This document shows positions 26,386 to 44,273 of a stretch of 64,000 nucleotides of DNA, in pieces. The stretch's first letter is position 1. Each line of letters starts with the position of its first letter. The position numbers were made by a program, and so were the translations under genes. Below the pieces are notes generated by a model. It did no database searches, was not told where the DNA came from, and saw only the letters and a list, made by a program, of their open reading frames with translations. This DNA comes from Lumbricus terrestris (taxonomy: Eukaryota > Annelida > Clitellata > Crassiclitellata > Lumbricidae): NCBI GenBank assembly GCA_949752735.1, contig OX457041.1, positions 21,790,117 through 21,854,116 of the forward strand, written 5' to 3'.

Positions 26386-27703
26386 TGATTAGCCGCTTTG
26401 ATCTAGATCACAGATATGAATCATACCTAACCTAATATTTTGTTTAAGAGCATACATTTTAAGGATTTATCACATGAGATATGTGATGCGTATTCACACA
26501 AACCTTCCAACATCTGTTTTACCAGCTTGAAAAGTGATGAACAACGGCACGAGCAATCTGGATCGCCTGAATATAAGGCGCGCACGACTGTGTAAAAACG
26601 GGGGTTCAAGACCCTCAGAAGAATTATTCTTTATTTTATAGATTTATTTAATCTTCTGAATTTGATACGCTGAAAAATTTGACAGGATATTTAAAACATG
26701 CAATTTACAACCGAAAGCGCATCCAATAACATAACTTTACATATATTTTTCATACATTTGTCGAATTCGCTGATCTAATGGATGTGAACATAGAACCTTC
26801 CAAACCGCGGCTCGCTAGATGGCTCCAGAAACTGGGTATGTACCACAAACGCAACAGAATCATAGGACCCCAAGCGATCAAACGCAGCATTATGCCGACC
26901 TCTGGTGAATACCTCAGAATCAGGCATACAGAGTCTATTTGGGCTCAACCCAACATCATACATAGGCATCAAACTGATTTGGATTCCGAGCGTCACACAG
27001 ATTAATATGATGATATGGACTCTGTCACAGCAAACAGAACCCGATGGAGGCTACCAACAGCATCCAACCCGCTTATCGCGCAAGATTTACACACACCACA
27101 CAACACAGAGATTCTGCAAGCTCCCACTAAGAGTCCCACCGCTTGATATGTGATTTATTATGAGCCTTCATGACAATGATGATCGCATCACCCAAAAACG
27201 CTCGGATAGATATGTAGAGTATGATTATAATATATACAAGATTAATATACTATATGTATAGAAACACACAAGGTGGGGATATTAATAAAAATCGCCTCTT
27301 AGCGTTTAGATCGATCTATTCTAGTATGATGACCGCGACGTGGCGGCGCCAGGCGACTGGATAGGGAACCTTGTCAATACGCACATTTCGTACGCCTTGA
27401 CAATGCTTAAGAATCTACGCACAAGCGAACATTTATATCGCTCGCAGCATACATAGAACCGCACTGTAGAAGCAAGGCCATTTTTTAGCTGAATACAACG
27501 AACAACATTTTAAGCGGATTGAATCACAACACCGGCATGCAGACCCGACAATAAAGAACATACATTTTCAACGCACACCCGCAATATATTGCGATTGTAT
27601 GCTTACTGATTTTAAGAACTTGAGGAAAATTGTTAGGCAGGTGGTAAATTATAGATTGTTATTTAAATAAATTATAAGACTATGCCGCGAGATAGCGGAT
27701 ATC

Positions 27704-28108
27704 AGTAGATAGATTAAGACTATTCTAGGACATTTGACCACAATCATGGTTAAACTTTTCCAAACCATCCATAACCATGGTTCAAAAATATAACCACCCA
27801 ATAACCATGCTTCAAAAATATAACCACCCACAACCACGGTTCAAAAATATAACCACCCATAACCACGGTTCAAAAATATCCCGACCCATAACCATGGTTA
27901 AACTTTTACCAACACACAAATTTATTTTTTTTCCTGGTGTATATAAAATAACAAAAAAAAAATTTTCTTGATCCGGCATGCACCACCCCAAACCATGGTT
28001 CAACTTCTACCAACCACCCCAAACCATGGTTCAACTTCTGCCAACCACCCCAGCACGCGCCTATGACTCATCATGCGGGGAATTCCCAGTAGTTTCGATG
28101 ATGAGTCA
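27704..28108 (+). repeat. Polinton left terminal inverted repeat
   Basis: 405 bp, inverted match to 44274-44678. The outer part is a tandem array of about 31-bp units centred on AACCATGGTT or AACCACGGTT, followed by an A/T run, two GGTTCAACTTCT units, and the AP-1/kappaB-like module. Confidence 0.95.
28064..28108. promoter_or_regulatory. AP-1 / kappaB / AP-1-like module, left end
   Basis: TGACTCA (28064-28070) and TGAGTCA (28102-28108) match the AP-1 site. Between them GGGAATTCCC (28078-28087) is a palindromic Rel/NF-kappaB-type site. In this copy the AP-1 arms extend to 14-bp inverted repeats (CTATGACTCATCAT). At this end the module lies just past the integrase stop codon. Confidence 0.5.
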
Positions 28109-28116
28109 TAGGGCGG

Positions 28117-29031
28117 CTACATGACCACTAAGTCTTCATTATCTATCCACGAATTAAAAGACTCTGGATATCCAACCCACTTCACGAGTGATTTCTTCCC
28201 ACGTTTCCTGATAATCTTTTCTATTCTAAATATTTCTTGAGTCGTTTTCTGTAGCTCCTCTTCATAAAAACTACCTTGTATTTCCTCACCATTAGAATCA
28301 GTAATCTTATAAGTTGGTGGAACCGTGTATTGAATCTGGGATACTGTAAATACCTCCTCAGTCCATCGGGGTGTATATCCTTTCTCAAAAATATTCTTCT
28401 TCTTAGTTATTCTGACCTTATCACCGATTGAAAACTTTGGCGTAATAGGCTCCGAAATCTCTTTACCGTATAAATTCATAAATACAGCCTTTTCATTCAC
28501 TTTCATACTAGCCTTGGTGGGAGTCATTTTAATGGAAGAATGCCGTGTATTATTATAATTGATAACCATTTCATCTAATATATCGATATATCTTCTCGTT
28601 GAATTAGCTGTAAAGTACTTGAACATTTTATCTTTCATAGTCCTATTCCATCTCTCAACAACGCAAGATTTTTCCTCATTCTCAGTAGAGTACAAATCAA
28701 CCAAATTCTTGACATCCTTGTTATAAAATTCTTTCCCTTTATCAACCCATAATTTCACAGGCTTTCGTCCACCCTCGAGTATCTTCATAAAACCGGCAGC
28801 TGTAGATTTCCCACTCTTATCTTTCAATGACACAATCCAACCGTATTTAGAAAACACATCTATAACGGTTAGCAGGTATTTTACACCATCATTATCTTTA
28901 GCAAACGACTGCATATCTACTAGATCAGCCGCCCATATCTCATCTATCCCATTAACAATCACCTTCCTCTTCCTAAAATGTCTAACAACTGGTTTATGCA
29001 ACTCATCAGCTAATTGATCAGTCCATTTCAC
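28117..29031 (-). CDS. Polinton integrase with chromodomain
   Basis: Retroviral-type DDE integrase that would insert the element's DNA into host chromosomes. In the 304-residue frame counted from 29031 the catalytic residues are D36 (WAADLVDM), D97 (WVDKGKEF) and E126 (VVERWNRTMK). An integrase C-terminal beta-barrel region spans about 190-260. A chromodomain at 266-303 ends LVKWVGYPE..NSWIDNEDL and could steer insertion to modified histones. The N-terminal zinc-binding region of full-length relatives is missing. The first in-frame ATG is residue 40, after the first catalytic Asp; the frame is open upstream to 29067 without an ATG. It overlaps the end of the phospholipase-like gene in the -1 frame, at a slippery sequence. 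Expression may therefore need frameshifting, splicing or a non-ATG start. Confidence 0.9.
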   Translation of the reverse strand: MKWTDQLADELHKPVVRHFRKRKVIVNGIDEIWAADLVDMQSFAKDNDGVKYLLTVIDVFSKYGWIVSLKDKSGKSTAAGFMKILEGGRKPVKLWVDKGKEFYNKDVKNLVDLYSTENEEKSCVVERWNRTMKDKMFKYFTANSTRRYIDILDEMVINYNNTRHSSIKMTPTKASMKVNEKAVFMNLYGKEISEPITPKFSIGDKVRITKKKNIFEKGYTPRWTEEVFTVSQIQYTVPPTYKITDSNGEEIQGSFYEEELQKTTQEIFRIEKIIRKRGKKSLVKWVGYPESFNSWIDNEDLVVM

Positions 29032-29558
29032 TTCAGAGCTTTTTTTAAACCTAACCCAAGACTCGCTTTAGTAGATAATATAGGCTTGACAATAGCCCTC
29101 TCTACACGCTCCCGGATAGTAGGATTAGAAATATTATTCAAATCATTAATCATCGCCCTATCCGCAATATTCCTAGAAGCTGTATCGGTGTGTTGATTGT
29201 AAGCTAGATCGTGGATATATGCTGCGTTATCTACTCGATTAATAGGCCTGCTCCAATCTTTAGGAGTCTCGTTCGGATTCAGTCTCTTGTCTAGCCTTGT
29301 ACCTGGACCTGTAAAATGGTGGCCTGGCAAATGCATCTCACCGGGAAACTTAGCCCAAGGTAGCTTAATGTTACTAGTAGCTGCGTTCAACGAACTAACC
29401 AGATCTCCACCTTGCACAACGGTAGACGCCTTTACGAATTGTGTTTTAGTTTTCCCGCATACAACGCAAACGCCTCGAAGCATCGATCTCCCATTATTCG
29501 CTACGGCGTTCTGCACATCTCTCGTTTCAGTCTGTTTTTTACACTTTACGCAATACAT
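29028..29558 (-). CDS. DUF5679-like zinc ribbon + parvovirus-type phospholipase A2 domain
   Basis: 176 residues. C3, C6, C31 and C34 form a small zinc-ribbon-like N-terminus resembling DUF5679, which is common in viral proteins. The central domain has the signature of the phospholipase A2 in parvovirus VP1. A calcium-loop GPG lies at 84-86 (HFTGPGTRLDKRLN). The catalytic His-Asp pair is H116-D117 within DNAAYIHDLAY. Related domains occur in many invertebrate Polintons. The family role is membrane breaching during entry; activity here is inferred. The gene is divergent from the ATPase gene across 25 bp. Its last codons contain TTTAAAA at 29049-29043, where a -1 slip would enter the integrase frame. 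Confidence 0.85.
   Translation of the reverse strand: MYCVKCKKQTETRDVQNAVANNGRSMLRGVCVVCGKTKTQFVKASTVVQGGDLVSSLNAATSNIKLPWAKFPGEMHLPGHHFTGPGTRLDKRLNPNETPKDWSRPINRVDNAAYIHDLAYNQHTDTASRNIADRAMINDLNNISNPTIRERVERAIVKPILSTKASLGLGLKKALK
29043..29049 (-). promoter_or_regulatory. Candidate -1 ribosomal frameshift heptamer
   Basis: In the upstream frame the codons read GGT TTA AAA AAA GCT, giving T-TTA-AAA, which fits X-XXY-YYZ exactly. A -1 slip continues directly into the open integrase frame. I did not find an obvious downstream stem or pseudoknot by eye. Confidence 0.5.
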
Positions 29559-29583
29559 CTCGCTTTTTTAATATATAAATAAA
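29559..29583. promoter_or_regulatory. Divergent 25-bp intergenic promoter region
   Basis: CTCGCTTTTTTAATATATAA and the following five bases separate two divergent start codons. The TATATAAATAAA block is the only promoter-like sequence and must serve both genes or lie within their leaders. Confidence 0.5.
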
Positions 29584-30369
29584 ATGGAAATCAAAGATCT
29601 GAGTTGGGAATCTGAGCTATCGAAAAGATTTAATAATCCTTTGCTACCTAAAAGTATACGGGGGCTGATAATCGGAAAGTCAGGCTGTGGCAAAACGACG
29701 CTTCTTCTGAATCTATTACTCAGGTCAGGCTGGTTGGACTATAATAACCTCCAGGTATTCGGTAAATCTCTGTTTCAACCTGAATATCGTATTATTAAAA
29801 AAGCCTTCGAAGAAAAATTACCAAAAGAATCGATCGTTGGATTATTCGAGCTTCAAGAGGAAATCATGAAACTAAACGCGCCGCCAGCCCTCGTTATGGA
29901 AGAAATGGCCAAAGAATCAAAAGCCAAATCCGATATAATTGCCAAGTTCTTTGAAAAAGCCGATGATGTGCCAGACCCGAGTGCCTTAAGTAGCGAAAAG
30001 AAGAATCTGATGATTTTTGATGATTTACAATTGGAAAAACAAAACAAATGTGAAATGTATTATATTCGGGGGAGGCATAGTAATGTGGACTGTTTTTACC
30101 TAGCACAGAATTATTTCAAACTACCACGACAAACGATCAGAGAGAATGCAAACTTTATTTGCCTGTTCAAGCAGGACTCGAAAACCCGTAACCATATTTA
30201 CAGCGACCATGTTAGTACAGACATGCATAAAGACGAATTTAGAAAACTATGCAAAACGGTGTGGGATCAACCGCACGGATTCCTTGTTATTGATCTAACT
30301 AGTAAAAATAATGATGGTAAATATCGCTGCGGTTTCGACCTATTTTATGAAATCGAAAATCCTCTGTAG
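29584..30369 (+). CDS. A32/FtsK-type genome-packaging ATPase
   Basis: 261 residues. The P-loop is GKSGCGKTT at 31-39 and Walker B is LMIFDD at 142-147. A conserved block follows, FYLAQNYFKLPRQTIRENAN (about 171-190), typical of the A32-like packaging ATPases of Polintons, virophages and large DNA viruses. It would drive the element's DNA into a preformed capsid. Length is normal for the family. The start follows the element-wide AATAAAATG motif. It is the first gene of a rightward block of nine genes that is mostly structural. No lesion is seen. Confidence 0.93.
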   Translation: MEIKDLSWESELSKRFNNPLLPKSIRGLIIGKSGCGKTTLLLNLLLRSGWLDYNNLQVFGKSLFQPEYRIIKKAFEEKLPKESIVGLFELQEEIMKLNAPPALVMEEMAKESKAKSDIIAKFFEKADDVPDPSALSSEKKNLMIFDDLQLEKQNKCEMYYIRGRHSNVDCFYLAQNYFKLPRQTIRENANFICLFKQDSKTRNHIYSDHVSTDMHKDEFRKLCKTVWDQPHGFLVIDLTSKNNDGKYRCGFDLFYEIENPL

Positions 30370-30397
30370 TAAAAAATTATTCTTGACCTAATAACAA

Positions 30398-31192
30398 ATG
30401 GAATCATCGCTTCTCAAACAGATAGCTGATAATACGGAAAAGACAGCTCGTAACACAGAACCAAAAAAGTCATTTTACATTTTCCTGAGCGAAAAGAGCT
30501 CACGAATCAGAACAGATTTTAATCCATCAATTGAACTGGACACAAATAAAAACTATGAAATGGCTCTTCTAAATCTTGAAACGTACTATTCTTTTCCAAA
30601 TATCGACGCGACAAACAACAACTTCACATATTCACCAGATGATGACACAGACTGGATTACCATAAAAGTCCCTGAAGGATGCTATGAAATAACTGAAATC
30701 AACGAATGCATACAGAGAATAATGAAGAGGAGAGGACATTACGATGAGATAAATTCAGAGTACTGTATCTCAATACAACCAAACACCAATACGTTGAAGT
30801 CTGTATTAAATATAGCACCAGGCTATCGGGTTAACTTTGACCTCAAGAATTCAATCGGATCAGTTCTAGGTTTTGAAAGATTACTCTATCGGAGCGGCTA
30901 TAACGAATCGCAGAACTTGGTAAATATAATGAGTATTAGCACTTTGCGAGTGACTAACGACATTATCGGGTCTTCGTACACCAACGGAACGACAGAAAAC
31001 GTGATACATTCTTTTTTCCCAAACGTAGGGCCGGGTTACAAGATTTTCGAAGTGCCACACAATTTAATATATCTTCCCATTACGCTATCTTCGATTTCAA
31101 CGATGACGACAGCGCTCACAGACCAAAATGGGAAACAGGTAAATCTTAGAGGAGAAGACTTGACGATTCGTTTTCACATCAGAGAAGTTTGA
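30398..31192 (+). CDS. Putative minor capsid (penton) protein
   Basis: 264 residues with a short N-terminal helix (MESSLLKQIADNTEKTARNT), then a beta-rich body. It contains the conserved block SFYIFLSEKSSRIRTDFNP, YEMALLNLETYYSFPNI and WITIKVPEGCYEI that recurs in invertebrate Polintons next to the ATPase. Single jelly-roll pentons occupy the vertices of such capsids, and position and fold-like composition fit. I base the call on the family block and gene order, not on a structural match. It lies 28 bp after the ATPase gene. Confidence 0.65.
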   Translation: MESSLLKQIADNTEKTARNTEPKKSFYIFLSEKSSRIRTDFNPSIELDTNKNYEMALLNLETYYSFPNIDATNNNFTYSPDDDTDWITIKVPEGCYEITEINECIQRIMKRRGHYDEINSEYCISIQPNTNTLKSVLNIAPGYRVNFDLKNSIGSVLGFERLLYRSGYNESQNLVNIMSISTLRVTNDIIGSSYTNGTTENVIHSFFPNVGPGYKIFEVPHNLIYLPITLSSISTMTTALTDQNGKQVNLRGEDLTIRFHIREV

Positions 31193-31214
31193 AAGTTTTT
31201 TGTTAATTTATAAA

Positions 31215-31829
31215 ATGAGTCGCTACACATGCTTTAAAGTTAATATTTCGGAAGCGCAACAAGACAAAATTAAAAAATCTCTCCAAGCGGGAACTGGTGT
31301 GAGTATCAAACTAAGCCATAGCGATATAAACGGAGAGCATGCTTTGGCTTTCACGCAAGCACAGGTCAATAAATTAGCTAAAGCGTATGAAAAAGGAACA
31401 GGTGTGATCATCAAAATGAGTAAAACGCAATTGGAGAACAATAAGAAAGTCCAAGGGGGATTTATAGGTGCTATACTTCCGTTTCTAGCAACAGCGGGTA
31501 AATTCCTTGTGTCTAAATTACTACCTAGTTTAGCGATGGGGGCTATGACCGGCGTAGGTTCCGCGACCGCGTCGAAGATTGTTGATTCAATCAGCGGATC
31601 TGGTGTAAAGTACCTAAAGAAAATCTATGCGAAGAAAGGTGATTTGACGTGTAAGATAAAATCAGTCGGGTCTGGTTTGTACTTATCCCCATGGTCAAAA
31701 GGCGCCTCGATAACAGGATCCGGGTTGTACATGAAAACAGGGTCGGGGTATGTGCCTATAGGTAGAGGACTTTTGTTTGGACCAAATTCCCCGTTTCAAA
31801 ATATTCCGATACTCGGCATGATATTGTAA
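31215..31829 (+). CDS. Putative virion core/membrane-active protein (pX/pVI-like)
   Basis: 204 residues from the ATG at 31215; the preceding TTATAAA sits directly on it. The N-terminal half has two related units, each ending GTGV(S/I)IK(L/M)S. A glycine-rich hydrophobic segment follows (GGFIGAILPFLATAGKFLV), then SKLLPSLAMGAMTGVGSATA. The tail is Gly/Ser-rich and basic. Such GG-plus-amphipathic proteins sit beside capsid genes in Polintons and adintoviruses and are compared with adenovirus pX or pVI. The exact role is uncertain: DNA condensation or membrane disruption during entry. Confidence 0.6.
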   Translation: MSRYTCFKVNISEAQQDKIKKSLQAGTGVSIKLSHSDINGEHALAFTQAQVNKLAKAYEKGTGVIIKMSKTQLENNKKVQGGFIGAILPFLATAGKFLVSKLLPSLAMGAMTGVGSATASKIVDSISGSGVKYLKKIYAKKGDLTCKIKSVGSGLYLSPWSKGASITGSGLYMKTGSGYVPIGRGLLFGPNSPFQNIPILGMIL

Positions 31830-31867
31830 ATTATCTGTTATAAAAAAATATCATGTAAATAAAACGA

Positions 31868-32524
31868 ATGGAAAACGAAGGCATCAAAATAACACAATCA
31901 CTCTATCCGAAGCTTCCATCAGCACCGGAAGGAGAAATACATATCGTCACAGGGTCGGCGCAAACGTACCGGCTCCAAAAGATTGGTGAAATTAAGAAAG
32001 AAATCGAGCAAGAACGCGACAAAAGAGCGGCGTTGAGTAAAAAGTACCATAGAAGTGTAAGCGTAATCGGTGCAGTAGGTGGCGTCCTCTCAGCGGTCAC
32101 GATGGGACTCGGAGTTTCAGGAATCGGAGTATTATCCACTATAATCGCAGCACCCATTGCTATGGCTTTGGAAGGAGCGGCATTAGGTGTGGGGCTGTTA
32201 AGTATAATCGGTATCTACATCAGTAAAAAGCTTGCGTTGAAGGCTGAGAAGCATGAAAAAATCAAAACGCTAGCCGACGCGAAACTCAACACGATCAGCG
32301 ACCATATTTCAAAAGCTCTCATGGATGATAACATTTCAGACCAGGAATATTCCCTGATTCTGAGCGAGATTGAAAAATTCAACGGCATGAAAGAAGAAAT
32401 TAGGAGTAATATCAAAGTTGCGATCGACGCGATGGACGAGGTGACGAAACAATCACTCATCGATCGTGGAAAAGATGAAGCCCGGCAGTACTTTCAATCT
32501 ATGTTTGAGAAAAAAAAAGACTAA
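31868..32524 (+). CDS. Polinton membrane protein with helical tail
   Basis: 218 residues. A charged N-terminal helix (about 38-62) leads into a long Gly/Ala-rich hydrophobic region (64-118), enough for two membrane passes. A soluble helical tail follows (125-200; EKIKTLADAKLNTISDHISK onward). Similar hydrophobic-plus-helix proteins are frequent in invertebrate Polintons, but I know no established function. The tail, from about residue 112, has been copied twice downstream in the chimeric genes at 32706 and 33171. Confidence 0.7.
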   Translation: MENEGIKITQSLYPKLPSAPEGEIHIVTGSAQTYRLQKIGEIKKEIEQERDKRAALSKKYHRSVSVIGAVGGVLSAVTMGLGVSGIGVLSTIIAAPIAMALEGAALGVGLLSIIGIYISKKLALKAEKHEKIKTLADAKLNTISDHISKALMDDNISDQEYSLILSEIEKFNGMKEEIRSNIKVAIDAMDEVTKQSLIDRGKDEARQYFQSMFEKKKD

Positions 32525-32529
32525 CGCAA

Positions 32530-32640
32530 ACATACGTGAAAACATGTAGACGTATGTTGTTACGTCTGGAAATACGTCTAACATTCACAAACATACGTGA
32601 AAACATGTAGACGTATGTCGTTACGTCTGGAAATACGTCC
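32530..32640. repeat. Intergenic hairpin repeats
   Basis: ACATACGT and ACGTATGT form 8-bp arms around a 12-base loop at 32530-32557 and 32591-32618, each followed by (G/T)TTACGTCTGGAAATACGTC. A third copy (33110-33137) overlaps the stop codon of the first chimeric gene. A partial copy lies near 33565. Confidence 0.85.
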
Positions 32641-32705
32641 AACTTATGTTTTGAAACATGTCGAAAAAACACGTCTGAAAACATTATATTTTTCTTTTAC
32701 TTAAA

Positions 32706-33119
32706 ATGTCGTTTCTAAAAAACACCGACCCCGCGAAAAGAGACCTTATCGTTGCTGAATATCTGAAAACCAAGAAGAATTTTCAACAAAACTTTTTATC
32801 GGAGAGATTGGGAGATTCGGGACTGCAAAGTATAATCGCCAGTTACATCTGTAAAAAGCTGATGATGAATGAAAAGATCAAAACGCTAGCTGACGTGAAA
32901 CTCAACACGATCTGCGACTATATTGAAAAAGCTCTCATGGATGATAACATTTCAGATGAGGAATATTCGTTGATGCTGAGCGAGATTGAAAAATTCAATA
33001 ACAAGAAAGAAGAGATTAGAAGTAAAATTAAAGTCGTGATGGATGTGGTGAACGAGGTGACGAAGAAGTCAGGTAGAAAAACAAAAAACGAATCTATCAA
33101 AAAGACAAAACATACGTGA
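32706..33119 (+). CDS. Chimeric paralogue 1 (DUF8207-protein head + membrane-protein tail)
   Basis: 137 residues. Residues 1-41 (MSFLKNTDPAKRDLIVAEYL onward) copy the N-terminus of the protein at 33607. From residue 42 the sequence matches the membrane protein at 31868 from its residue 112 (SIIASYICKKL against SIIGIYISKKL) through the helical tail. The hydrophobic region is lost. The frame is intact and starts at the usual TTAAAATG, so it may be expressed. A tandem duplication followed by internal deletion explains it. The function is unknown; it could bridge partners of the two parent proteins. Confidence 0.75.
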   Translation: MSFLKNTDPAKRDLIVAEYLKTKKNFQQNFLSERLGDSGLQSIIASYICKKLMMNEKIKTLADVKLNTICDYIEKALMDDNISDEEYSLMLSEIEKFNNKKEEIRSKIKVVMDVVNEVTKKSGRKTKNESIKKTKHT

Positions 33120-33170
33120 AAACATGTAGACGTATGTTGTTACGTCTGAAAATATTTTTTTCTACTTAAA

Positions 33171-33548
33171 ATGTCGTTTCAAAAAATAACCGATCCCGCG
33201 AAAAGAGCCGATTTCGTTGTAGAAAATCTGAAAATAATCGATGAACATAATAAACAAATTTTATGGGGTTTAATAGGTGATTCGGAGATGGGAAGTTTAA
33301 TCGACAGCTATAAAAATCAGATGATGAAAGCTGAGAAGCACGAAGAAATCAAAACGCAAGCTGTCGCGAAACTCAACACGATCAGCGACCATATTACAAA
33401 AGCTCTCCTGGATGATATCATTTCGGTTGAGGAATATTATCTGATTCTAAGCGATATTAAAGAAATTTGGGGCAATAAGATTACAACCATAGCGGAATCG
33501 TTACGCAATCAAGTAATAAGTCAGGAGGTACTTGCAATCTATGTTTGA
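33171..33548 (+). CDS. Chimeric paralogue 2 (more diverged)
   Basis: 125 residues with the same architecture as the gene at 32706. The head MSFQKITDPAKR comes from the protein at 33607. At the same junction a tail begins (MMKAEKHEEIKTQAVAKLNT) that resembles the membrane protein. Both halves are more diverged, and the C-terminus (after about residue 100) is different. It lies 51 bp after chimera 1 behind another hairpin repeat and starts at TTAAAATG. No function is known; it may be decaying or diversifying. Confidence 0.7.
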   Translation: MSFQKITDPAKRADFVVENLKIIDEHNKQILWGLIGDSEMGSLIDSYKNQMMKAEKHEEIKTQAVAKLNTISDHITKALLDDIISVEEYYLILSDIKEIWGNKITTIAESLRNQVISQEVLAIYV

Positions 33549-33606
33549 GAAAAATAACGAATCTGTCTGGAAATACGTCTGAAAACATTATATTCCTAAT
33601 TTTAAA

Positions 33607-34506
33607 ATGTCGTTTTATAAAATAACCGACCCAGCGAAAAGAGACCTTATCGTTGCTGAATATCTGAAAACAAAGAAGAATATTCAACAAAACTTTTTAT
33701 CGGAGAAATTAGGAGATTCGGGGCTTCAGCAAGATTTAACCAAGTTCTTCAAACCTATCGTTGATTCCCAATCCGCAATTTCCAAAGAGCAAAATGTCTT
33801 ATTGTCCGCGATCAACCAAAATTCGGTAGCTACTTCAAATGCGCTACAAGCACTTCCTTCGTTACAGGGCCTTCAATTTCCTCAGCATCCGGCGATAGAA
33901 GCGAGTAGCGACGATCCAACCAAGGATATCAAAACCCTGTATTTTGGAGATATGGCGACTAAGTACCTTAATCAATACTTCTCCGATAAAAAAATCACCG
34001 ACACAACGTTCGGAATAAAAAGCAAAAATGACCAACGCTACATCGGCGACACTCTGATTTCGATAGAAGGAGACGACGTGACGGTTGGAAATAAGACTTA
34101 CACAGGAACACCGGGGCTTTGGGAGTTGTTGACGATGAAACAGCCGGACGCCGCGATATACGATGATAATGACATAGCTGATTACGCTGAAATTCTGTAC
34201 GCGACGAATGCTATAGCACAGGAAAAAAATCCTAACAGACCTAGATCATCTTCAGGTGCCAAATACAAACAAATTGTTGGACCGATATGGGAAAATAGGC
34301 CCCGCAGTACAGTAGGTAAAGGTGTCGACGTAATCGTCATCTCCGAAGACCCAAATGTATTAGTGAAACGGCTAGATTTATTAGTTAACGGCTTCAACGT
34401 GGGTAACACCGGAGTAAGAAACGAGCTCGTATCGATATGCGACGCGCTACTTCGACAAGGAGTGATGAACAAGGATACTTACAAAAATTTAATGTCGATA
34501 TTATAA
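33607..34506 (+). CDS. DUF8207-like Polinton protein
   Basis: 299 residues. The helical N-terminus (1-75) is the source of the heads of the two chimeric genes. A C-terminal globular domain (about 125-240) contains TTFGIKSKN, YIGDTLISIEGDDVTVGNKT, YTGTPGLWELLTMKQPD and ILYATNAIAQEKNPN. As I recall it, this is the pattern of the DUF8207 family seen in many invertebrate mobile elements; a profile search would decide. The function is not established, and its place between capsid genes suggests a virion component. The stop codon TAA is separated from the next ATG by one base. Confidence 0.7.
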   Translation: MSFYKITDPAKRDLIVAEYLKTKKNIQQNFLSEKLGDSGLQQDLTKFFKPIVDSQSAISKEQNVLLSAINQNSVATSNALQALPSLQGLQFPQHPAIEASSDDPTKDIKTLYFGDMATKYLNQYFSDKKITDTTFGIKSKNDQRYIGDTLISIEGDDVTVGNKTYTGTPGLWELLTMKQPDAAIYDDNDIADYAEILYATNAIAQEKNPNRPRSSSGAKYKQIVGPIWENRPRSTVGKGVDVIVISEDPNVLVKRLDLLVNGFNVGNTGVRNELVSICDALLRQGVMNKDTYKNLMSIL

Positions 34507-34507
34507 A

Positions 34508-34927
34508 ATGATGATCAATAATAGAATGAGTTACAGGAGGCGATACGTTATCGGTGGATCTGGTATAGTTGATGCTATTTCAGGATTTTTCAAAAGACTA
34601 ATCACATCGAATGCCGCCAACCAGCTAGCAGCGAGAGCTCTTAGTGCTAGCAAAGACGTGGCGATAGAAATTGGGAAAAAGGCTATCGATGTTGGGAAAA
34701 CAGCTGCAACCGACGCTGGTAAACGATTAGTGGAGAAAACAGCGGTAAAACTGTTGGCTGCTCCAAAGAAACAGGTTACGCAGGAAACTCGAGATATTCT
34801 TGCTCGACTTAGTAGCATCGGAGCGAATCCGGAGAGCGCTAATATTAATAATCTGATGATGGGGAATGGTATATTGATCCAAGATTTAGTGCGTAAGCGA
34901 AACGGTGCAGGAATGAAGGTCGTGTAA
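34508..34927 (+). CDS. Small basic amphipathic virion protein (pVI-like candidate)
   Basis: 139 residues from 34508; Met codons at 34511 and 34526 are alternatives. An Arg/Tyr-rich start (MSYRRRYVIGGSG) is followed by one long Ala/Lys-rich amphipathic helix (about 20-95; KDVAIEIGKKAIDVGKTAAT). It ends in a basic tail. Proteins of this shape next to the major capsid gene in Polintons are compared with adenovirus core or pVI proteins. A GG near the N-terminus (IGG-SG) could be a protease site for the element's adenain-like protease; that is inference. Confidence 0.6.
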   Translation: MMINNRMSYRRRYVIGGSGIVDAISGFFKRLITSNAANQLAARALSASKDVAIEIGKKAIDVGKTAATDAGKRLVEKTAVKLLAAPKKQVTQETRDILARLSSIGANPESANINNLMMGNGILIQDLVRKRNGAGMKVV

Positions 34928-34951
34928 AAAAAAATATTATTCTACAATAAA

Positions 34952-36244
34952 ATGATGTCTGATATTCTAAGATTTACCGATGAACCTCTGATTGATGTGT
35001 CTATCGAGAGCTACGAATGGCAACAGTATAACCCGATATCGGGATCGCAAATAAACACCCCGTCGAATATTACAATTATCATCGAAAGTCAAAGTATTTA
35101 CTGCCATCCAGCGGAATCTTATCTATTATTCGAGGGTAGATTGACGAAGGCGGACAACCTCAACACCGCGTACGCTAATGACGATGCTGTAACCCTTACG
35201 AATAATGGACTTATGCATCTATTCCAACAAATTTCGTACAGAATGTCGAACCAAGAAATTGAAACGATATCTAACCCAGGCCAGGCAACGACGATGTTCG
35301 GTTTACTCAAATACCCAAATGATTTTCAACTGGCACAAGGGTTAAATCAGCTGTGGTACAAGGACAGTGGCAGGACGGCTGTTATCGCGGATAACCAAGG
35401 TTTCAGCATTCGACAGTCATATCTAATTCAAAAACCGGGGGTAAAAGGCACGTTTAGCTTTATCGTTCCGTTGAAACATATTTTTGGATTTTGCGAAGAT
35501 TACAACAAGGTTGTTTATGGTGTGAGACATGAGCTAATTCTTTCTCGTAAAGGCGACGATGACGCAATTTTTAGACACGCTGATGCGGATGCTGGGAAAG
35601 TCGTACTTGATAAAATCTCGTGGTTTATGCCTCATGTTATACCATCTCTTATGGAGGACCACCAATTGAACAAAACGATCGCATCGAAAGCAACGTTCCT
35701 AGTTGGATTCAGGGCTCGTCAATGCGATGTTACAGTCGTCCATCATTCGACTAGTTTTGAATGGAAACTTGGCGTCAAGTCATCTCCTGAACAACCTAGG
35801 TACGTCATAATTGGATTTCAAACCAATCGAGATGGTAACCAGGAACGTAACCCATCGATTTTCGATCATTGCAATCTGACTAACATGTACGTGACGATGA
35901 ATACAACCCGATACCCAGCCTTCGACTACTACCTATCATTCCCGAATCAGCAATTCTCGCGAGCGTACAGAGCAGCGGCTACGTTTAGCGAAAAATTCTA
36001 CGGAATGGACGAAAAGTTAACGCAAAGCAATATCACACCGGTAGATTTCAAAGAGCTGTACCCGATTATGGTGTTTGATATGAGCAGGCAACCCGAGCGT
36101 CTGAAGTCCTCGGCAGTCGATATCCAGATCAGAGGTACTTTTAGTGTGGCGCCTCCTGTTGGGACGAAAGCGTACGCGGTGGTGATTTATGACAAGTTAT
36201 TCAATTTTCAATCGGATGGTGACAAAATAGGTAAGATCTACTAA
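34952..36244 (+). CDS. Major capsid protein, double jelly-roll
   Basis: 430 residues, beta-rich throughout. It carries the hallmarks of the Polinton/adintovirus hexon: an N-terminal SYEWQQYNPISGSQINTPS block, a central FSFIVPLKHIFGFCEDYNKV block, RYVIIGFQTNRDGNQ..NPSIFDH in the second barrel, and AYAVVIYDKLFNF at the C-terminus. Length fits the double jelly-roll family. Trimers would form the capsid facets. It is the last rightward gene, and the fibre block converges on it 36 bp downstream. No lesion is seen, which is notable because capsid genes are often lost from old Polintons. Confidence 0.88.
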   Translation: MMSDILRFTDEPLIDVSIESYEWQQYNPISGSQINTPSNITIIIESQSIYCHPAESYLLFEGRLTKADNLNTAYANDDAVTLTNNGLMHLFQQISYRMSNQEIETISNPGQATTMFGLLKYPNDFQLAQGLNQLWYKDSGRTAVIADNQGFSIRQSYLIQKPGVKGTFSFIVPLKHIFGFCEDYNKVVYGVRHELILSRKGDDDAIFRHADADAGKVVLDKISWFMPHVIPSLMEDHQLNKTIASKATFLVGFRARQCDVTVVHHSTSFEWKLGVKSSPEQPRYVIIGFQTNRDGNQERNPSIFDHCNLTNMYVTMNTTRYPAFDYYLSFPNQQFSRAYRAAATFSEKFYGMDEKLTQSNITPVDFKELYPIMVFDMSRQPERLKSSAVDIQIRGTFSVAPPVGTKAYAVVIYDKLFNFQSDGDKIGKIY

Positions 36245-36280
36245 ATTGTGTAAATTCAAAACTAAATGTGGTTTCGAATT

Positions 36281-36907
36281 TTAAGGTCGTAAGTACGCCG
36301 CTGAAAAATCCCTGCCTAATATGACTACAGAGGCGTTCGCTTCAGCAAATATCTCGAGGTAGTCGGTATTTGTTAAGTAAACTACGGTATTGCCCGTTGC
36401 GTTAATATACAATCCAATAACACCTCCGCCACCAGCAATCTGCATGTACGATGTTCCATTTTTGTAAAGGAAAACGTTACCGTAATTTTTTGTAATATCG
36501 TCCTGAAATTCAACATAAGCGGAAACGATGTAATATCCAGCTTTCTGGGGGAAGAAACGGTTCGAACTGGTGATGAAACAATTATCAGTATCAAATCTTG
36601 TTGTATTAAAATTTACTTTTGTGTGAATTATACCAGGAATACCTTGAAATTTAGGATCGGAATTGTAAGCACTAAACGCTGGACCAAATGCAGTTGAATG
36701 TATGTAATTCTTTGTAGCCGCGTCTTGAAGATCGGAAGGATCTGCCACATTAATCAGCTTCTTGGAACCCAAGTCGATATTTTCCACCGCTGCGTTCGCT
36801 CCATCTCGTCTTAGAAAAGTATTGTTGATTTGAGGATATGTGACACCACCCGCTTCTACCCGTGATGCCGATCCACCATCCATTTGTCCAAAAATGTTAA
36901 CAGGCAT
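36281..36907 (-). CDS. Putative fibre protein 1 (C1q-like head)
   Basis: 208 residues. A conserved N-terminal peptide, MPVNIFGQM, is followed by NTFLRRDGANAAVENIDLGS, a tail-fibre-like repeat. The head is a C-terminal beta-sandwich of about 130 residues with the C1q/TNF-like pattern: GPAFSAYNS near its start, FFPQKAGYYIVSAYVEF in the middle and DFSAAYLRP at the end. Such trimeric heads recognise receptors in many viruses and phages; that role here is inference. It has a short linker and no second repeat, unlike its two neighbours. It starts at AATAAAATG. Confidence 0.65.
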   Translation of the reverse strand: MPVNIFGQMDGGSASRVEAGGVTYPQINNTFLRRDGANAAVENIDLGSKKLINVADPSDLQDAATKNYIHSTAFGPAFSAYNSDPKFQGIPGIIHTKVNFNTTRFDTDNCFITSSNRFFPQKAGYYIVSAYVEFQDDITKNYGNVFLYKNGTSYMQIAGGGGVIGLYINATGNTVVYLTNTDYLEIFAEANASVVILGRDFSAAYLRP

Positions 36908-36955
36908 TTTATTATACGATGATATTTTTACACTTTCCCATCGATTTGGTAGAAT

Positions 36956-37705
36956 TTAGGGTCGTAAGTACGCAGCTGAAAAGTCAAAGACCTCAATGTT
37001 TGCGTCTACGTCTGTCATAGCAATTAGCTCGAGGTAGTCGGTGTTATTTAATCGAACTAGGCAAGTACCCGATACATTATTATTCGCCACAGCCGTACCT
37101 CCACCGCCGTAATCACCACCACCACCGGGCAACCTCATGTAGAACATCCCATTTTTGACTATGGAAACCATGCCAGCAGTTCTTGCACTATCACGGCGAA
37201 ATTCCACAAACACCGAAACCATATAAAATCCGGCTTTCTGAGGAAAGAATCGTTTCGAATTGATGAAACAATTATCCGGGTCGAATCTTTCTCTCGTGAA
37301 AATTAGTGTCGTGGCGGTGCCAGCGGGGATGGCCTGGGAACTGGAGCCGTGAGCACTAAACGCTGGACCAAAGTTGGTCTTTGTGAGTCTAGATACTACC
37401 GAAGCAATTTGTTCGTCGACATATTTTTTATTAGTCAAATGATTATCGTTGGATGGAATGCCAGGGTGATTCGTTATCAAATCCACACCTTGTCCGTAAC
37501 TTAGAGCCTCATCCATTCCGCAATCCGGATTATTCGTTATAGGTAGGCCTATGATGCAGTAGCCATTCATATTTAGTTCTCCAGTAGCCGGATTCGTTCC
37601 ATCTCGTCTTAGAAAAGTATTGCCGGCTGTGGAAAATGTGGTACCACCCGCTGCTACCTGTGGTGTTGATTTAACACCCATTCTTCCAAATATATCGATA
37701 GGCAT
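36956..37705 (-). CDS. Putative fibre protein 2 (C1q-like head)
   Basis: 249 residues, the longest of the triplet. It has the same N-terminal peptide (MPIDIFGRM) and the phrase FLRRDGTNPATGELNMNGYC. A second shaft-like segment follows (GMDEALSYGQ..DLITNHPGIPSNDNHLTNKKYVDEQ). The C-terminal C1q-like head (about 118-249) includes GPAFSAHGSS, RFFPQKAGFYMVSVFVEFRR and DFSAAYLRP. A glycine-rich loop (LPGGGGDYGGGG) differs from the other two heads, as expected if loops determine receptor choice. It is 48 bp from fibre 1. Confidence 0.65.
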   Translation of the reverse strand: MPIDIFGRMGVKSTPQVAAGGTTFSTAGNTFLRRDGTNPATGELNMNGYCIIGLPITNNPDCGMDEALSYGQGVDLITNHPGIPSNDNHLTNKKYVDEQIASVVSRLTKTNFGPAFSAHGSSSQAIPAGTATTLIFTRERFDPDNCFINSKRFFPQKAGFYMVSVFVEFRRDSARTAGMVSIVKNGMFYMRLPGGGGDYGGGGTAVANNNVSGTCLVRLNNTDYLELIAMTDVDANIEVFDFSAAYLRP

Positions 37706-37733
37706 TTTATAATGAGATTATTTTTTTCAGTCG

Positions 37734-38375
37734 CTATGGTCGTAAAAATGCGATGGAAAAGTCTCTCGCCATTATGTTTGTTTTGATGGTTGAATAAACA
37801 CCTATCTCGAGATAATCGGTTTCGGTTAGAAAAACTAAGGTACTACCTGTTGCCACCAAATCCCCTCCACCTGAAATTTGCATGTACACCCCGTCATTTT
37901 TATACAGGTAGAAGAAACTACCGGCAATAATACCGGGGTCTCGGTTAACAAAATCTACATACATCGAAACGATATAACAACCGGCTTTACCAGGGGTGAA
38001 ACGAGTCAGCCTCGTACTATTCACACCACCTCTTTTGAATCTTACTATATCGAAAGAAACTCTTGTGAAAGTACTAGCGTCTATGCTTTGCGTAGCTGAA
38101 GAGTAAGCGCTAATCGTGGGCCCTATTGCATCGATGTATTTCGTTATTAAATCCATAACCTGTCCTCGACTTAGAGCCTCATCCATTCCCGCTTCCAGAG
38201 TATTCGTTGTGGGTAGACCTTTTATCACGCAGCCATTCATATCTAGATCTCCAGTAACAGGGTTTGCTCCATCTCGTCTTAGAAAAGTACTGTTTGCCTG
38301 AGTTGTTGTGACGCCGTCCGATATTACTCGTGGCGCTGATTCGCTAACCATTTGTCCAAATATGTTTACAGGCAT
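37734..38375 (-). CDS. Putative fibre protein 3 (C1q-like head)
   Basis: 213 residues. MPVNIFGQM is identical to fibre 1. The shaft phrase FLRRDGANPVTGDLDMNGCV and GMDEALSRGQ match fibre 2. The head is the most diverged (RFTPGKAGCYIVSMYVDF; ending DFSIAFLRP). Retention of both ends with a diverged middle argues for one anchoring partner at the N-terminus, plausibly the penton, and selection for different surfaces. It lies next to the protease gene, with 4 bp between their coding ends. Confidence 0.65.
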   Translation of the reverse strand: MPVNIFGQMVSESAPRVISDGVTTTQANSTFLRRDGANPVTGDLDMNGCVIKGLPTTNTLEAGMDEALSRGQVMDLITKYIDAIGPTISAYSSATQSIDASTFTRVSFDIVRFKRGGVNSTRLTRFTPGKAGCYIVSMYVDFVNRDPGIIAGSFFYLYKNDGVYMQISGGGDLVATGSTLVFLTETDYLEIGVYSTIKTNIMARDFSIAFLRP

Positions 38376-38379
38376 TTTA

Positions 38380-38814
38380 TTAGTATAAATTATTTATAAC
38401 GTCTTGAAATTTACAACCGTCTGACACAGTCTTTTTTAGGACGTAAAGGCATAAATGACCGCAAAAGACTTCACCATCTGGTTGAATTCGTTCACTGTTG
38501 TAGTAGATGGGGCTATGTAAATACTTGACGAGTTCTGTGGGTGGTGGTAGGCCGTAACTATCGAAATATATTTTATCCTTGCCCTTCTTTAAAAACGAGC
38601 ACCAGTGGGTCCCTCTTCCTTGCGAGTCGTCCAAGTTTAGTATCCCACACTCATTTCGTCTAGGTTTTTTCGGTAGTTCATCTCGTAAGAAGACGCCACG
38701 GAAGTTTTTTATGTTTAGTTTTTTCACGGCTTCGATCAGCTGTATGTTCGAGAGAGGGACATTTGGTAATACAACACCTTCAACGTTTATTTCTTTGTTT
38801 GTTTCAAAGCTCAT
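38380..38814 (-). CDS. Adenain-like (ULP1/C5) maturation cysteine protease
   Basis: 144 residues. The catalytic set of the adenovirus-type protease is visible: H70 (RGTHWCSF), D85 (IYFDSYG), Q111 (RIQPDGEVFCGHLC) and nucleophile C118 in the same segment. Length matches Polinton proteases, which are shorter than adenovirus enzymes. It would process capsid and core precursors. Its start overlaps the stop of the next gene (38804) by 11 bp, and the start context is AATAAAAATG. Confidence 0.9.
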   Translation of the reverse strand: MSFETNKEINVEGVVLPNVPLSNIQLIEAVKKLNIKNFRGVFLRDELPKKPRRNECGILNLDDSQGRGTHWCSFLKKGKDKIYFDSYGLPPPTELVKYLHSPIYYNSERIQPDGEVFCGHLCLYVLKKTVSDGCKFQDVINNLY

Positions 38815-39613
38815 TTTTATTTGTTTCTTCTAAATATTTTATAAAATCATACGCTTTTTCCACCCGATCTATTTTGTTCGCTTTTTGCATATTTTTTTCC
38901 AATAGTACTGGGCAAATATTCATCCAATTCACAGCTTTATGAAGTTCTTTTTCATCGAACGATGATATTGGTGAAACAAAATCGAGATTCCAAACCGAGC
39001 CGTGATTGTCCATATTCATACCCTCTTCAAATTGGAACTCGATCCATTTCGTAAATGTTTTAAGACCGATACCGAGTTTACTTTTGAGACACTCTGGGAT
39101 TTCCATTTCACATTTTGGATCTGTCATTTTATCACGCCGTTGAGCTTCTATGCGGATGAGATAATAATTATGTCTACAATTTTTGCATACATTAGCATAT
39201 CCGTCTTTTTGGAATCGATTTTTATCGTATTCAGATATGTTCTTCTCTATTTTGCAGCCGCTACAAACTTTTCTTTCCTTCGTTTCTCTGTTCTCTAGCA
39301 TTGCATATTTATATGCACGCTCCTTTGCTTTGGTATTATGGCACGTTTTGCAGCTCGTATAAATTCCGTTCCTTTTTGTTTTATCTTTATGAAATTCGTT
39401 AAAACTTTTTTCAATCTTACAGCAGCAGCAAACTTTTTTGTTTTTTGTTTCCCCCACTTCAAGCTCTGAGTATTTTTGTCTAAGTTCCTTCGTTTTGATA
39501 ATGACACACTTTTTACAAGAAGCAAAATAGCCGCTCTTATTACGTTTGTTTTTGTAAAATTCAGTTAAGCTTTTCTCCATTTTGCAATTGTTGCATAATT
39601 TTAAGTCTGCCAT
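38804..39613 (-). CDS. Zinc-ribbon/HNH protein with lost catalytic residues
   Basis: 269 residues. Three similar four-Cys zinc ribbons (about 7-36, 62-91 and 117-146; C-x2-C...C-x2-C with EKS..EF..NK..KSGY-type cores) precede a diverged HNH domain. The paralogue at 39615 has W-H-L-D-H-V, but here the segment is W-N-L-D-F-V (N209, F212). Both metal/catalytic His residues are gone, although the surrounding fold (SPISSF, NWMNICPVL, KNMQKANKID) is kept. It is probably catalytically dead but still DNA-binding. It could be a regulator or a decaying copy; the intact 269-codon frame favours the former. Confidence 0.75.
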   Translation of the reverse strand: MADLKLCNNCKMEKSLTEFYKNKRNKSGYFASCKKCVIIKTKELRQKYSELEVGETKNKKVCCCCKIEKSFNEFHKDKTKRNGIYTSCKTCHNTKAKERAYKYAMLENRETKERKVCSGCKIEKNISEYDKNRFQKDGYANVCKNCRHNYYLIRIEAQRRDKMTDPKCEMEIPECLKSKLGIGLKTFTKWIEFQFEEGMNMDNHGSVWNLDFVSPISSFDEKELHKAVNWMNICPVLLEKNMQKANKIDRVEKAYDFIKYLEETNKNEL

Positions 39614-39614
39614 T

Positions 39615-40334
39615 TTATATTAGGATATTTTTTTTCTTTAGATCTAAGTCGTTTAAATGTTTCAGAAAGTAATCCGCTTTTACTTGTTGCATTACATATA
39701 ACCAGGGATCTATTTTGTTTGATTTTTGCATATTTTTAAGTGGGAGTAAGGGACGTATATTCAACCAATTCATAGCTTTTTGAAGTTCTTCTTCATCTAG
39801 CAAGTTGAACGATGATAAGGGTAGAACATGGTCGAGGTGCCAAAATGAGCCGTAATTCTCCATTGTCATCCCTTCATCTAATTGGAATTCGATCCACTTG
39901 GTAAATGTTTCAAAGTCGGTGCCTATAATTTGCATAGTAGTTTGCGACATCGATTTACCTCTTAATGATGCGCTTAGACTACTCCGTAAATTTACACCTA
40001 GATTAAATTCGGGATCATTTGCCCTTCGAGCTTTAAAATACGCTTGATTATATTTATATTTACAATTCTTACATTCGCTATCTACTCCATCTTTGCGAGA
40101 TTTATTTTTGACATATTCTGTTATATCCTTGTCTTCCTTGCAACGACAGCAAATTTTTTTATCTTTTGTTTCCCTAGTCTCCAGTCTCGAGTATTTTTGA
40201 TTACGTTCTCTCGCTTCGAAATTTTTACATATTTTGCAGCTATAATGATACCCGCTCTTATTACATTTATTTTTATGAAATTCATCGACACTTTTTTCTA
40301 TTTTGCACTTAGCGCATACTTTTGCAAGATCCAT
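39615..40334 (-). CDS. Zinc-ribbon HNH endonuclease
   Basis: 239 residues. Two four-Cys zinc ribbons (7-36 and 62-91) are followed by an HNH domain with H166-L-D168-H169 (FWHLDHVLPLSSF) and the Asn-bearing C-terminal part (NWLNIRPLLPLKNMQKSNK; N192, N201). The pattern is that of free-standing HNH nucleases of phages and large DNA viruses. Possible roles are genome processing, homing-like spread, or cleavage of rival or host DNA; none is shown. It ends one base before the start of its degenerate paralogue. Confidence 0.8.
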   Translation of the reverse strand: MDLAKVCAKCKIEKSVDEFHKNKCNKSGYHYSCKICKNFEARERNQKYSRLETRETKDKKICCRCKEDKDITEYVKNKSRKDGVDSECKNCKYKYNQAYFKARRANDPEFNLGVNLRSSLSASLRGKSMSQTTMQIIGTDFETFTKWIEFQLDEGMTMENYGSFWHLDHVLPLSSFNLLDEEELQKAMNWLNIRPLLPLKNMQKSNKIDPWLYVMQQVKADYFLKHLNDLDLKKKNILI

Positions 40335-40356
40335 TTTTTTATTAGAATATTTATTC

Positions 40357-43300: not shown

Positions 43301-44181
43301 TTGAAACATTCGTCGTCGTTGTTTTTCGGATTAATAATGGCCTTTTTATTTGCTAAATACTCGGGAAGCTGAATATACGAACTACCTTTCAATGGCTTGT
43401 ATACTACTGTATCGATATCCAAGTGCGAAACGGCCTTGAATCGCCAATTGCTACCCCGCATCTGATAACTAGCCATGCTCTCCTTAATTTTATCCACTGC
43501 GTTGGTATATATTTCCTTCACATCGGTTGCCTCTAAAATAATATCAGTCTTTGATTTGAAATTAGGCTCGGCCGTTGCTATTTCACCGGATTTTATGTCT
43601 ACTTTCTCCATTACACACATGAGATTGAGTTGAACTTTTACCCCTCGATTTTTCGCTAGCAGCCTAACTACCTGCGATCGTACAGCCTTGAGAAAAGATT
43701 CAACATCAACCCTGTTGTTGCCCTCGATCGTGTATCTTTTTGTAAACCCTTTGATAGCCGTCGCTGTCTCTCGAAGTTTGAACCTATGAACGGGTGGTTT
43801 TATTTGGGGAGGTAACTGACTAATCTCACTAGTCAACCAATCCGAAAAAGTAGCTTTATTTTTCCCCACAAATTTCCAAATAGTAGACACGTGTGCTGTA
43901 AGTTCCTCTTTTCCTAATCTTGAGTATCCTCGTGTGCCTCTCTTTTTCGCAATTTCTCGCAATTCTCGTACCGTGCCTCTCTGTTTCGTAATTTCTGGTA
44001 ATTCTCGTACCGTGCGGGGAGTACGCGTTGGAGCCTTGATGTCTGGTGCCCTAGCACCTAGTTGATCTCCCCGCGTTATGAGTGCTATGAGTTCCGGTTT
44101 TGGTAGCCTCGAGTATCCTTTTTGTCCTCTTTGTTTTGGAATTTGTCGCAATTCTTTCAGATTATACGCTGTGTAGTCCAT
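40357..44181 (-). CDS. polB: Protein-primed family B DNA polymerase
   Basis: 1274 residues from the ATG at 44181, which has the element's ATAAAATG context; an in-frame ATG at 44226 would add 15. Positions below count from 44226. The N-terminus has SAP-like repeats (LKELRQIPKQRGQKGYSRL near 23-41; VRELREIAKKRGTRGYSRLG near 86-105). A C2H2-like finger lies at about 424-444. The exonuclease motifs are YADFES (D479, E481), HNLTGYD (631-637) and YNVSDVLLLAD (793-803). Polymerase motif A is YLDANNLYGWAM (D893), motif B KLMNNSVFGK (1029-1038) and motif C FTDTDS (1127-1132). An endonuclease VII-like zinc block (CHICG...DHCHLTGKFRG) sits between ExoI and ExoII. It would copy the linear genome from a protein primer. 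Confidence 0.95.
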   Translation of the reverse strand: MDYTAYNLKELRQIPKQRGQKGYSRLPKPELIALITRGDQLGARAPDIKAPTRTPRTVRELPEITKQRGTVRELREIAKKRGTRGYSRLGKEELTAHVSTIWKFVGKNKATFSDWLTSEISQLPPQIKPPVHRFKLRETATAIKGFTKRYTIEGNNRVDVESFLKAVRSQVVRLLAKNRGVKVQLNLMCVMEKVDIKSGEIATAEPNFKSKTDIILEATDVKEIYTNAVDKIKESMASYQMRGSNWRFKAVSHLDIDTVVYKPLKGSSYIQLPEYLANKKAIINPKNNDDECFKWCITRALNPVDEHPERITKDLIEQSEKLDWSGIVFPVAADANIINKFERSNNISVSVFGFEKSVYPLYISKHESDTCIDLLLISDDEKKHYCWIKNFNRLMAARTEKSVNSMHYCRRCLIGYRTKDSLKKHIEYCSQHDAQRIELPGPGTMLSFKNYYRKMRVPFIIYADFESFIKPIDTCQPDPSTSYTNKYQKHTPSSFCYYIKCFDEDLYSQAPVTFTAKSEDDDVAQIFIDSLIVDIKDIYNRFKFPEKMIFGKDDKKLYDSATVCHICGGEFFVDDDSDNNMRVRDHCHLTGKFRGAAHKICNLKYKVPKFFPVVFHNLTGYDSHLFVKKLRGGNNEQIKCIPCNEEKYISFSREIVVDKFINKEGKEKKVKRELRFIDSFRFMPAGLDALSKNLSKDQCKNVSKYYSGNRLDLLLRKGVYPYDHVSSIDQLNETELPLKSAFYSKLNDSGISDEDYNHAQEVWKEFGFKTFREYHDLYNVSDVLLLADVFENFRDVCMKNYNLDPAWYYTSPGLAWDASLKLTGVKLELLSDYDMILMVKHGIRGGVSTISHRYGQANNKYLQTFDDSKPSTFITYLDANNLYGWAMCKNLPTHGFQWMTDDELNDWRSIPCILEVDLEYHRDLHDLHNDYPLAPENITPESSTVPKLIPNLNDKVKYITHYENLKQYESLGLKITKIHRGIKFEESTWLKKYIDLNTNLRTKATNDFEKDFFKLMNNSVFGKTCENIESRVDIKLVSSEKQAIKLAAKTSYGSRTIFDQNLIAIHMKKTSLIYNKPIYLGMCILDLSKTLMYSFHYNYIKDKYGDRAQLLFTDTDSLAYEIKTVDFYADIAPDVRSMFDTSDYPKDHPSGIETGVNKKVIGLFKDEASGKQIEEFVGLRSKLYSYKMAGVNHMKCKGVKKSVVKKTITHNDYKECLFTRREQSRRMNVIRSHLHEIYTEEVNKIALSADDDKRVIQQDGIHTLAYGHYLLKST

Positions 44182-44273
44182 TTTATATTGGGATTTTTTG
44201 TCTTTAAGTCGAGATGCATATTCCATTTCTCAGTTATTTTATATACACAAGAGAAAAAAATATTTTGATCGAG

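Follow-up and report, generated by a model that had tools for sequence, protein, structure and literature searches.

A Polinton integrase in the earthworm Lumbricus terrestris is predicted to be made as a trans-frame fusion to a phospholipase A2-like protein

In a 64,000-nucleotide stretch of the Lumbricus terrestris genome (hereafter the window) we found a Polinton in which the integrase frame (INT) overlaps, in the -1 register, the end of a frame for a zinc-ribbon/phospholipase protein (PLA2). A trans-frame fusion of INT to PLA2 is a well-supported prediction, because of the register, the missing AUG, the selection on the INT N-terminus, the in-frame fusions among relatives and the retention of the site in short-branch copies. 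On balance we think that the fusion is made by ribosomal -1 frameshifting, the route that the sequence comparisons favour over the others. A preliminary description of this DNA had proposed that the integrase may be a slip-made minor fusion to the phospholipase; the fusion across frames is supported by the present analysis, while the ribosomal mechanism stands as the favoured route.

The element carrying the PLA2-INT cassette has the following extent in the window.

27704-44678 (no strand assigned): Polinton/Maverick, about 17.0 kb, with two terminal inverted repeats (TIRs) of about 405 nt
27704-28108 and 44274-44678: the TIRs, 100% complementary

Long TIRs, a 6-bp duplication, an rve integrase, a double jelly-roll (DJR) capsid protein (PF21738, E 6.7e-56) and an A32-type ATPase (PF04665, E 9e-9) identify it as a Polinton/Maverick. 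Its 411-nt arms, which include the target duplication, are 100% complementary, and the palindromic duplication GATATC lies at 27698-27703 and 44679-44684. A protein-primed DNA polymerase B was sought in the 1289-aa ORF, which has no PolB Pfam match at E 0.01 and whose translation contains a DTDS motif that we take to be polymerase-like; an adenain-like protease was sought in the 144-aa ORF at 38380-38814, which has no Pfam match.

At 36281-38375 on the minus strand lie three tandem related ORFs of 208-249 aa with MP[VI][ND]IFG.. and similar C-termini, perhaps duplicated fibre-like genes; the one of these tested had no Pfam match. At 31868-34506 on the plus strand, segments of the forms MSF.K.TDPAKR.. 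and KIKTLAD.KLNTI.. are common pairwise to four ORFs, a pattern that suggests tandem duplication and recombination within the Polinton. The polymerase region of a second Polinton looks split across 47354-48646 (plus), 49749-54533 (minus) and 55854-57596 (plus). The first part resembles, by eye and with no Pfam match, the N-terminal half of the first Polinton's polymerase, and the last is a DNA_pol_B_2 fragment; between them, on the opposite strand, is the 1594-aa ORF of an LTR retrotransposon, presumably Gmr1-like. Its polyprotein runs from SCAN-like and protease parts through integrase (residues 734-905) and reverse transcriptase (1220-1378) to RNase H, and the position of integrase ahead of reverse transcriptase is unusual for a Ty3-type element.

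The cassette itself is composed as follows.

29558-29028, minus strand: PLA2 ORF, 176 aa, DUF5679 zinc ribbon and Phospholip_A2_4
29067-28117, minus strand: INT frame, open for 316 codons between stops, with an rve core and a chromodomain at the C-terminus
29028-29067, minus strand: PLA2/INT overlap, 40 nt, -1 relation
29049-29043, minus strand: predicted slip site T TTA AAA, in phase with PLA2, unchanged in 40/40 similarity-picked copies
29046-29040, minus strand: A7 run, second heptamer A AAA AAA, in phase with PLA2
28926-28924, minus strand: first catalytic Asp codon of INT, 5' of the first in-frame ATG
28914-28912, minus strand: first in-frame ATG of INT, 3' of the first catalytic Asp

The PLA2 ORF matches PF18930 (E 2.7e-14) and PF08398 (E 6.4e-12), and its GPG loop and presumed catalytic HD..Y residues are invariant in 23 aligned sequences. 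The INT matches fall below their cut-offs, just so for rve (E 1.5e-7, 32.1 bits against 32.6) and also for Chromo (22.1 bits against 25.1); the presumed catalytic residues D48, D109 and E138 are invariant in 26 aligned sequences, and we take the Asp at 28926-28924 to be catalytic by the known DDE pattern. At the slip site the PLA2 frame reads GGT TTA AAA AAA GCT on the minus strand, and a slip at T TTA AAA or at A AAA AAA leads into the same INT frame. We thus confirmed what had been described of this copy, namely the T TTA AAA in PLA2 phase within the overlap, the entry into the INT frame by a -1 slip there, and the lack of an ATG before the first catalytic Asp. INT had also been said to lack the usual N-terminal part, and the rve match does start at open-frame residue 43, but relatives start likewise, directly after PLA2. 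Canonical in-phase heptamers number 23 in the 5198 codons of this Polinton's ORFs, and the chance of at least one in the overlap's 11 placements is about 4.8%; with a chance of this size the single copy is suggestive only, and the evidential weight falls on the relatives.

According to the explanation that we favour, the PLA2 gene would be translated from the AUG at 29558, and most ribosomes would stop at the TGA at 29030-29028 to give the 176-aa zinc-ribbon/PLA2 protein. A minority would shift by -1 on T TTA AAA A / A AAA AAA (29049-29040), with a few PLA2 codons still unread, and continue through INT; the DDE integrase would then exist only as the C-terminal portion of PLA2-INT. The ribosomal nature of the slip, its efficiency, the activity of the fusion as integrase and its possible packaging are points that we infer.

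We searched the genome (1.056 Gb, 331 contigs) with three queries: the DNA cassette (best 40 of 607 candidates scored), a fused relative (100 matches; best 91 of 4567 candidates scored) and subfamily C (best 40 of 630 candidates scored; 20 places added, 13 already in the set, 7 left out). The window and its copies make up 140 loci, 139 of them analysable, with L077 left out for lack of a PLA2 match; the top-scoring matches favour well-preserved copies, the natural fusion as query favours in-frame ones, and the copies are mutually related. In the similarity-picked set, the window and 39 copies that are 91-94% identical, both the exact sequence TTTAAAAAAA and INT at -1 were found in 40/40. The identical A7 in all of them rules out single-copy decay and also a sequencing error, which the preliminary description had raised as a possibility for the A-run.

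The 139 loci divide into 118 with INT at -1, 11 with it in-frame and 10 with it at +1. Relatives with well-separated frames had been named as contrary evidence; what we found are the in-frame-joined copies, a minority (11/139). An in-phase canonical heptamer lies within the overlap in 106 of the 118 -1 copies. The other 12 have none (for instance GGT TTT AAA AAA), and 7 come from outside subfamily C, of which 5 have two open ORFs; the heptamer-less but otherwise open copies are L057, L058, L061, L065 and L078 outside C, and L130 and L139 in C.

A-type linkers occur at 79 loci (73 at -1, 5 in-frame, 1 at +1), and 67 of the 73 -1 linkers begin with TTAAAAAAA, the remaining 6 with three or four T; the subfamily A heptamers are T TTA AAA / A AAA AAA, with an A7 run. 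Among the 31 B-type loci the linker is 50 nt instead of 23 nt in 28 and 51 or 53 nt in the other 3. All 28 with the 50-nt linker are at -1, with an overlap of 67 nt (61 nt in L066), and carry TCA AAA AAC GGC, in which the heptamer A AAA AAC, of the classical type, contains an A6 run; G GGT TTA is present too in 26/28. Both main linker lengths, 23 nt and 50 nt, are 2 modulo 3. Mean pairwise DNA identity is 0.905 for 66 A copies and 0.923 for 28 B copies, these groups being defined by the heptamer.

In subfamily C (L048, L054, L067-L071, L128-L147) the A-run varies from 6 to 11, and the 27 loci comprise 16 at -1, 8 at +1 and 3 in-frame, three of the C loci having yielded no linker; seven loci are 73-75% identical to the window proteins. 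With both ORFs open, meaning PLA2 of at least 165 codons and INT of at least 300, there are 7 at -1, 6 at +1 and 2 in-frame, one of them (L054) stop-cut. These both-open copies, with A-runs of 7 to 11 in three registers, form a natural length series.

The main rival to ribosomal -1 frameshifting is slippage in transcription, in which RNA polymerase II would add or drop A residues on the A-run and part of the mRNAs would encode PLA2-INT; we consider it a serious contender, though an unlikely one. An A-run is found inside the overlap in A (A7), B (A6) and C (6 to 11), and this explanation fits some copies as well as a ribosomal slip does and the mixed registers of C better, since both frames stay open there at runs of 7 to 11 in registers -1, +1 and 0, the pattern that frame rescue by slippage in any direction would produce. 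However, RNA polymerase II is expected to slip rarely on A6-A7, and B has runs of only A6, yet an ideal ribosomal heptamer. Transcriptional slippage is known for IS elements and Ebola virus, but the rate of about 2% given for a GAAAAAA site was with a viral polymerase (PMC5009743, in the excerpt available); IS1447 is described as slipping on A9 in transcription, seven A being enough (PMC6211511, excerpt).

Two further features of the cassette emerged from the 40 similarity-picked copies.

29028-28915, minus strand: INT codons from the overlap to the first ATG, dN/dS 0.033, no stop in 40 copies
29009-29051, minus strand: segment around the slip site, nearly invariant in 40 copies

In all 40 the INT frame is free of ATGs until 28914, and a Met before the first catalytic Asp is absent in 124 of the 126 out-of-frame loci with a recognisable Asp motif; the exceptions, L076 and L147, are both truncated ORFs, and two more loci have no Asp motif. 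Among the 40 copies dN/dS is 0.033 for INT 5' of its first ATG, 0.114 for the rest of INT and 0.097 for PLA2, which by this estimate places the codons 5' of the first ATG under strong purifying selection. Collectively, the missing AUG and this selection indicate that INT seems to be translated from upstream, with no AUG of its own.

Within 29009-29051, frequent variation is confined to 29031, and 29038 and 29016 each vary in a single copy. For the INT frame, synonymous diversity at 29067-29020 is about 0.008 against a mean of 0.116, part of which is due to double coding; further low-synonymous patches are present elsewhere in INT. All 40 copies share the slip codons GGT TTA AAA AAA, but synonymous change is also absent at 2/12 other GGT, 4/6 TTA and 16/23 AAA sites, and with so many other TTA and AAA sites unchanged, the conservation of the slip codons is unremarkable by itself and gives weak support. 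The invariance of the slip codons in 66/66 A and 28/28 B copies was set aside because these groups are defined by holding the heptamer.

The same region bears on another explanation, to which we give a low probability: INT would be made as a separate protein, by non-AUG initiation, by termination-reinitiation at the GTG/CTG that overlaps the stop of PLA2 (29031), or via an internal transcript. It would make the mixed registers of subfamily C immaterial, and a near-cognate codon is found at 29031 in 40/40 copies (27 GTG, 13 CTG), but an NTG there follows automatically from the overlapping TGA stop of PLA2, and some relatives (for instance P0132) have the end of PLA2 at another place. Moreover, eight ATGs, the PLA2 start included, lie 5' of 29031 in the cassette, and under separate synthesis the preference of A and B for -1 would go unexplained, as would the fused frames found in relatives.

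Alternatively, an ordinary fused gene might have been broken by the loss of one base in the A-run, as three in-frame copies in this genome with A8 at the A7 site (L050, L051, L052) would allow; we judge such decay very improbable. The -1 register is found in 118/139 copies, in 45/45 short-branch copies outside C and in B with another linker, and both frames have low dN/dS. In a tree of the 139 loci built with the junction left out, the register changes at least 18 times. Outside C, that is, excluding the group with less than 80% PLA2 identity, copies not at -1 sit on longer terminal branches (median 0.060 versus 0.024; Mann-Whitney p 4e-5); when copies are compared by heptamer instead of register, the p value of this test is 0.002. 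At a terminal-branch cut-off of 0.02, chosen by us, -1 and heptamer together are found in 45/45 copies below it and in 49/66 others (Fisher p 7e-5), so that 17/66 longer-branch copies have lost register or heptamer, a contrast that may be sharpened by the well-preserved top matches and the fused query. In subfamily C the branch-length difference is non-significant (p 0.16).

Next, we compared the junction with proteins from other genomes and metagenomes. With the PLA2 part of a fused relative as query, 56 of 99 proteins, two from Mya arenaria among the 56, carry both PF08398 and PF00665 in precomputed annotation, many of these being distant (29-60% identity in the PLA2 part). In 27 junctions picked by regular expression the order is PLA2, short linker, INT, which is the order expected from the slip; typically the C-terminal G-x-G motif of PLA2 leads through a short linker to W[TS][DN].LAEELHKP or an equivalent. 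P0028, P0245 and P0255 (Mya arenaria) have the same domains, order and junction as the window cassette but differ in being one open frame, for which a slip is unnecessary. The Lumbricus genome itself holds six single-open-frame copies of 474-519 codons (L048-L053), of which L053 looks damaged in its N-terminal part. None of the nearest INT relatives of the window, P0001-P0022, is predicted with a PLA2 part. Other arrangements are a zinc ribbon joined directly to INT with no PLA2 (P0107), PLA2 joined to another integrase type (P0247, P0259) and a PLA2-INT protein with no usual linker (P0054, NCBI Hydra vulgaris LOC136074287).

Of 118 metagenomic PLA2 tails, 108 were uninformative; those reaching at least 3 residues into INT are 3 at -1 and 7 at +1, and at a threshold of at least 4 residues 3 and 5, against shuffled expectations of 0.2 and 0.1. 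Scans of viral_contigs and genome_contigs confirmed no relatives. The -1 register and the heptamer are kept in A and B, but not in C nor in some metagenomic relatives; given the mixed registers of C and these tails, we abandoned the idea of a -1 register throughout the wider family.

A downstream RNA pseudoknot, which the preliminary description had suggested looking for, was not borne out. Folding downstream of the site gave no stimulator in the window copy (z 0.33) or in samples of 12 A and 12 B copies (z -1.8 to 0.27), and Rfam gave no match. The best pseudoknot candidate (29037-29029/28980-28972 with 29014-29007/28931-28924) was dropped as 16/434 control positions score as well; a stem-1 pair is broken in 13/40 copies without compensation and one stem-2 pair is kept in only 16/40. 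Such a structure is not needed by all functional -1 sites. Splicing of the PLA2 and INT frames, by which the integrase might gain an N-terminus and as which the linker gap of the Hydra protein could be read (its annotation may have introduced an artificial intron to get past a frameshift), is the least credible explanation, because a simple scan of the window copy finds no acceptor-like site in 29305-28862, with only weak donors near the junction, and most fused proteins compared keep the linker.

For the ribosomal slip that we favour, the two different canonical heptamers of A and B, both in the right phase, speak in its favour; the lack of a convincing downstream structure, the heptamer-less open copies and the +1 register in C and in 7/10 informative tails speak against it. 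Slippage on the A-run, in transcription or in translation, could unite the heptamer-less copies and the +1 registers.

The arrangement has counterparts in other mobile elements. The catalytic part of IS3 OrfB is an rve-like DDE domain, and its slip site is A-rich. In IS3-family OrfA/OrfB pairs, IS1447 included, an upstream ORF and a catalytic ORF likewise overlap partly, often at -1, and are joined by slippage, with both transcriptional and ribosomal routes in use among IS elements (excerpts of PMC5009743 and PMC6211511). However, IS3 OrfAB is bacterial and its upstream part DNA-binding, whereas here that part is a zinc ribbon with PLA2, and no stimulatory structure was found; the cassette works like OrfAB but is no IS3 member, its element having the architecture of a Polinton. 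In the gag-pol of retroviruses and retrotransposons, a canonical X XXY YYZ site yields an integrase-bearing minor fusion to a bulk-made protein; unlike these, the present element is a dsDNA element with no reverse transcriptase or gag, and no pseudoknot was found. Within the same virus assemblage, -1 frameshifts with slippery sequences predicted by KnotInFrame have been suggested for adintovirus Penton and Hexon-Adenain, which are other genes and lead neither into integrase nor from PLA2 (PMC11071296, as far as the available text goes). We found no report of a PLA2-integrase frameshift in the literature searched, which included few subscription journals.

PLA2 domains of parvovirus capsids act in entry. 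A Maverick PLA2 protein has been termed capsid-like (PMC5803895, excerpt), and the related virophage Mavirus may integrate via an integrase packaged in its particle (PMC6723459, excerpt). The preliminary description had called the phospholipase virion-associated and had suggested that the fusion would carry the integrase into new cells, both of which may be so. We tentatively hypothesize, as a possibility rather than a probability, that frameshifting sets the dose of an integrase attached to a particle-borne, parvovirus-like PLA2, such that a few integrases per particle would be tethered to a membrane-breaching enzyme; that the DUF5679 ribbon would be the missing N-terminal domain of INT, as P0107 suggests; and that the A-run, through mutations in its length, might switch the two genes between being split, slipped and fused.

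Polintons occupy a central place among eukaryotic DNA viruses and transposons. If the fusion is real, it would be the first known trans-frame integrase in Polintons, within a searched literature of few subscription journals and partly available texts, and it would account for the predicted integrases of this clade that start at odd internal codons. The solution of IS3 OrfAB and gag-pol would then be present in a dsDNA element as well, and the fusion would provide a concrete test of whether the Polinton integrase travels in the particle.
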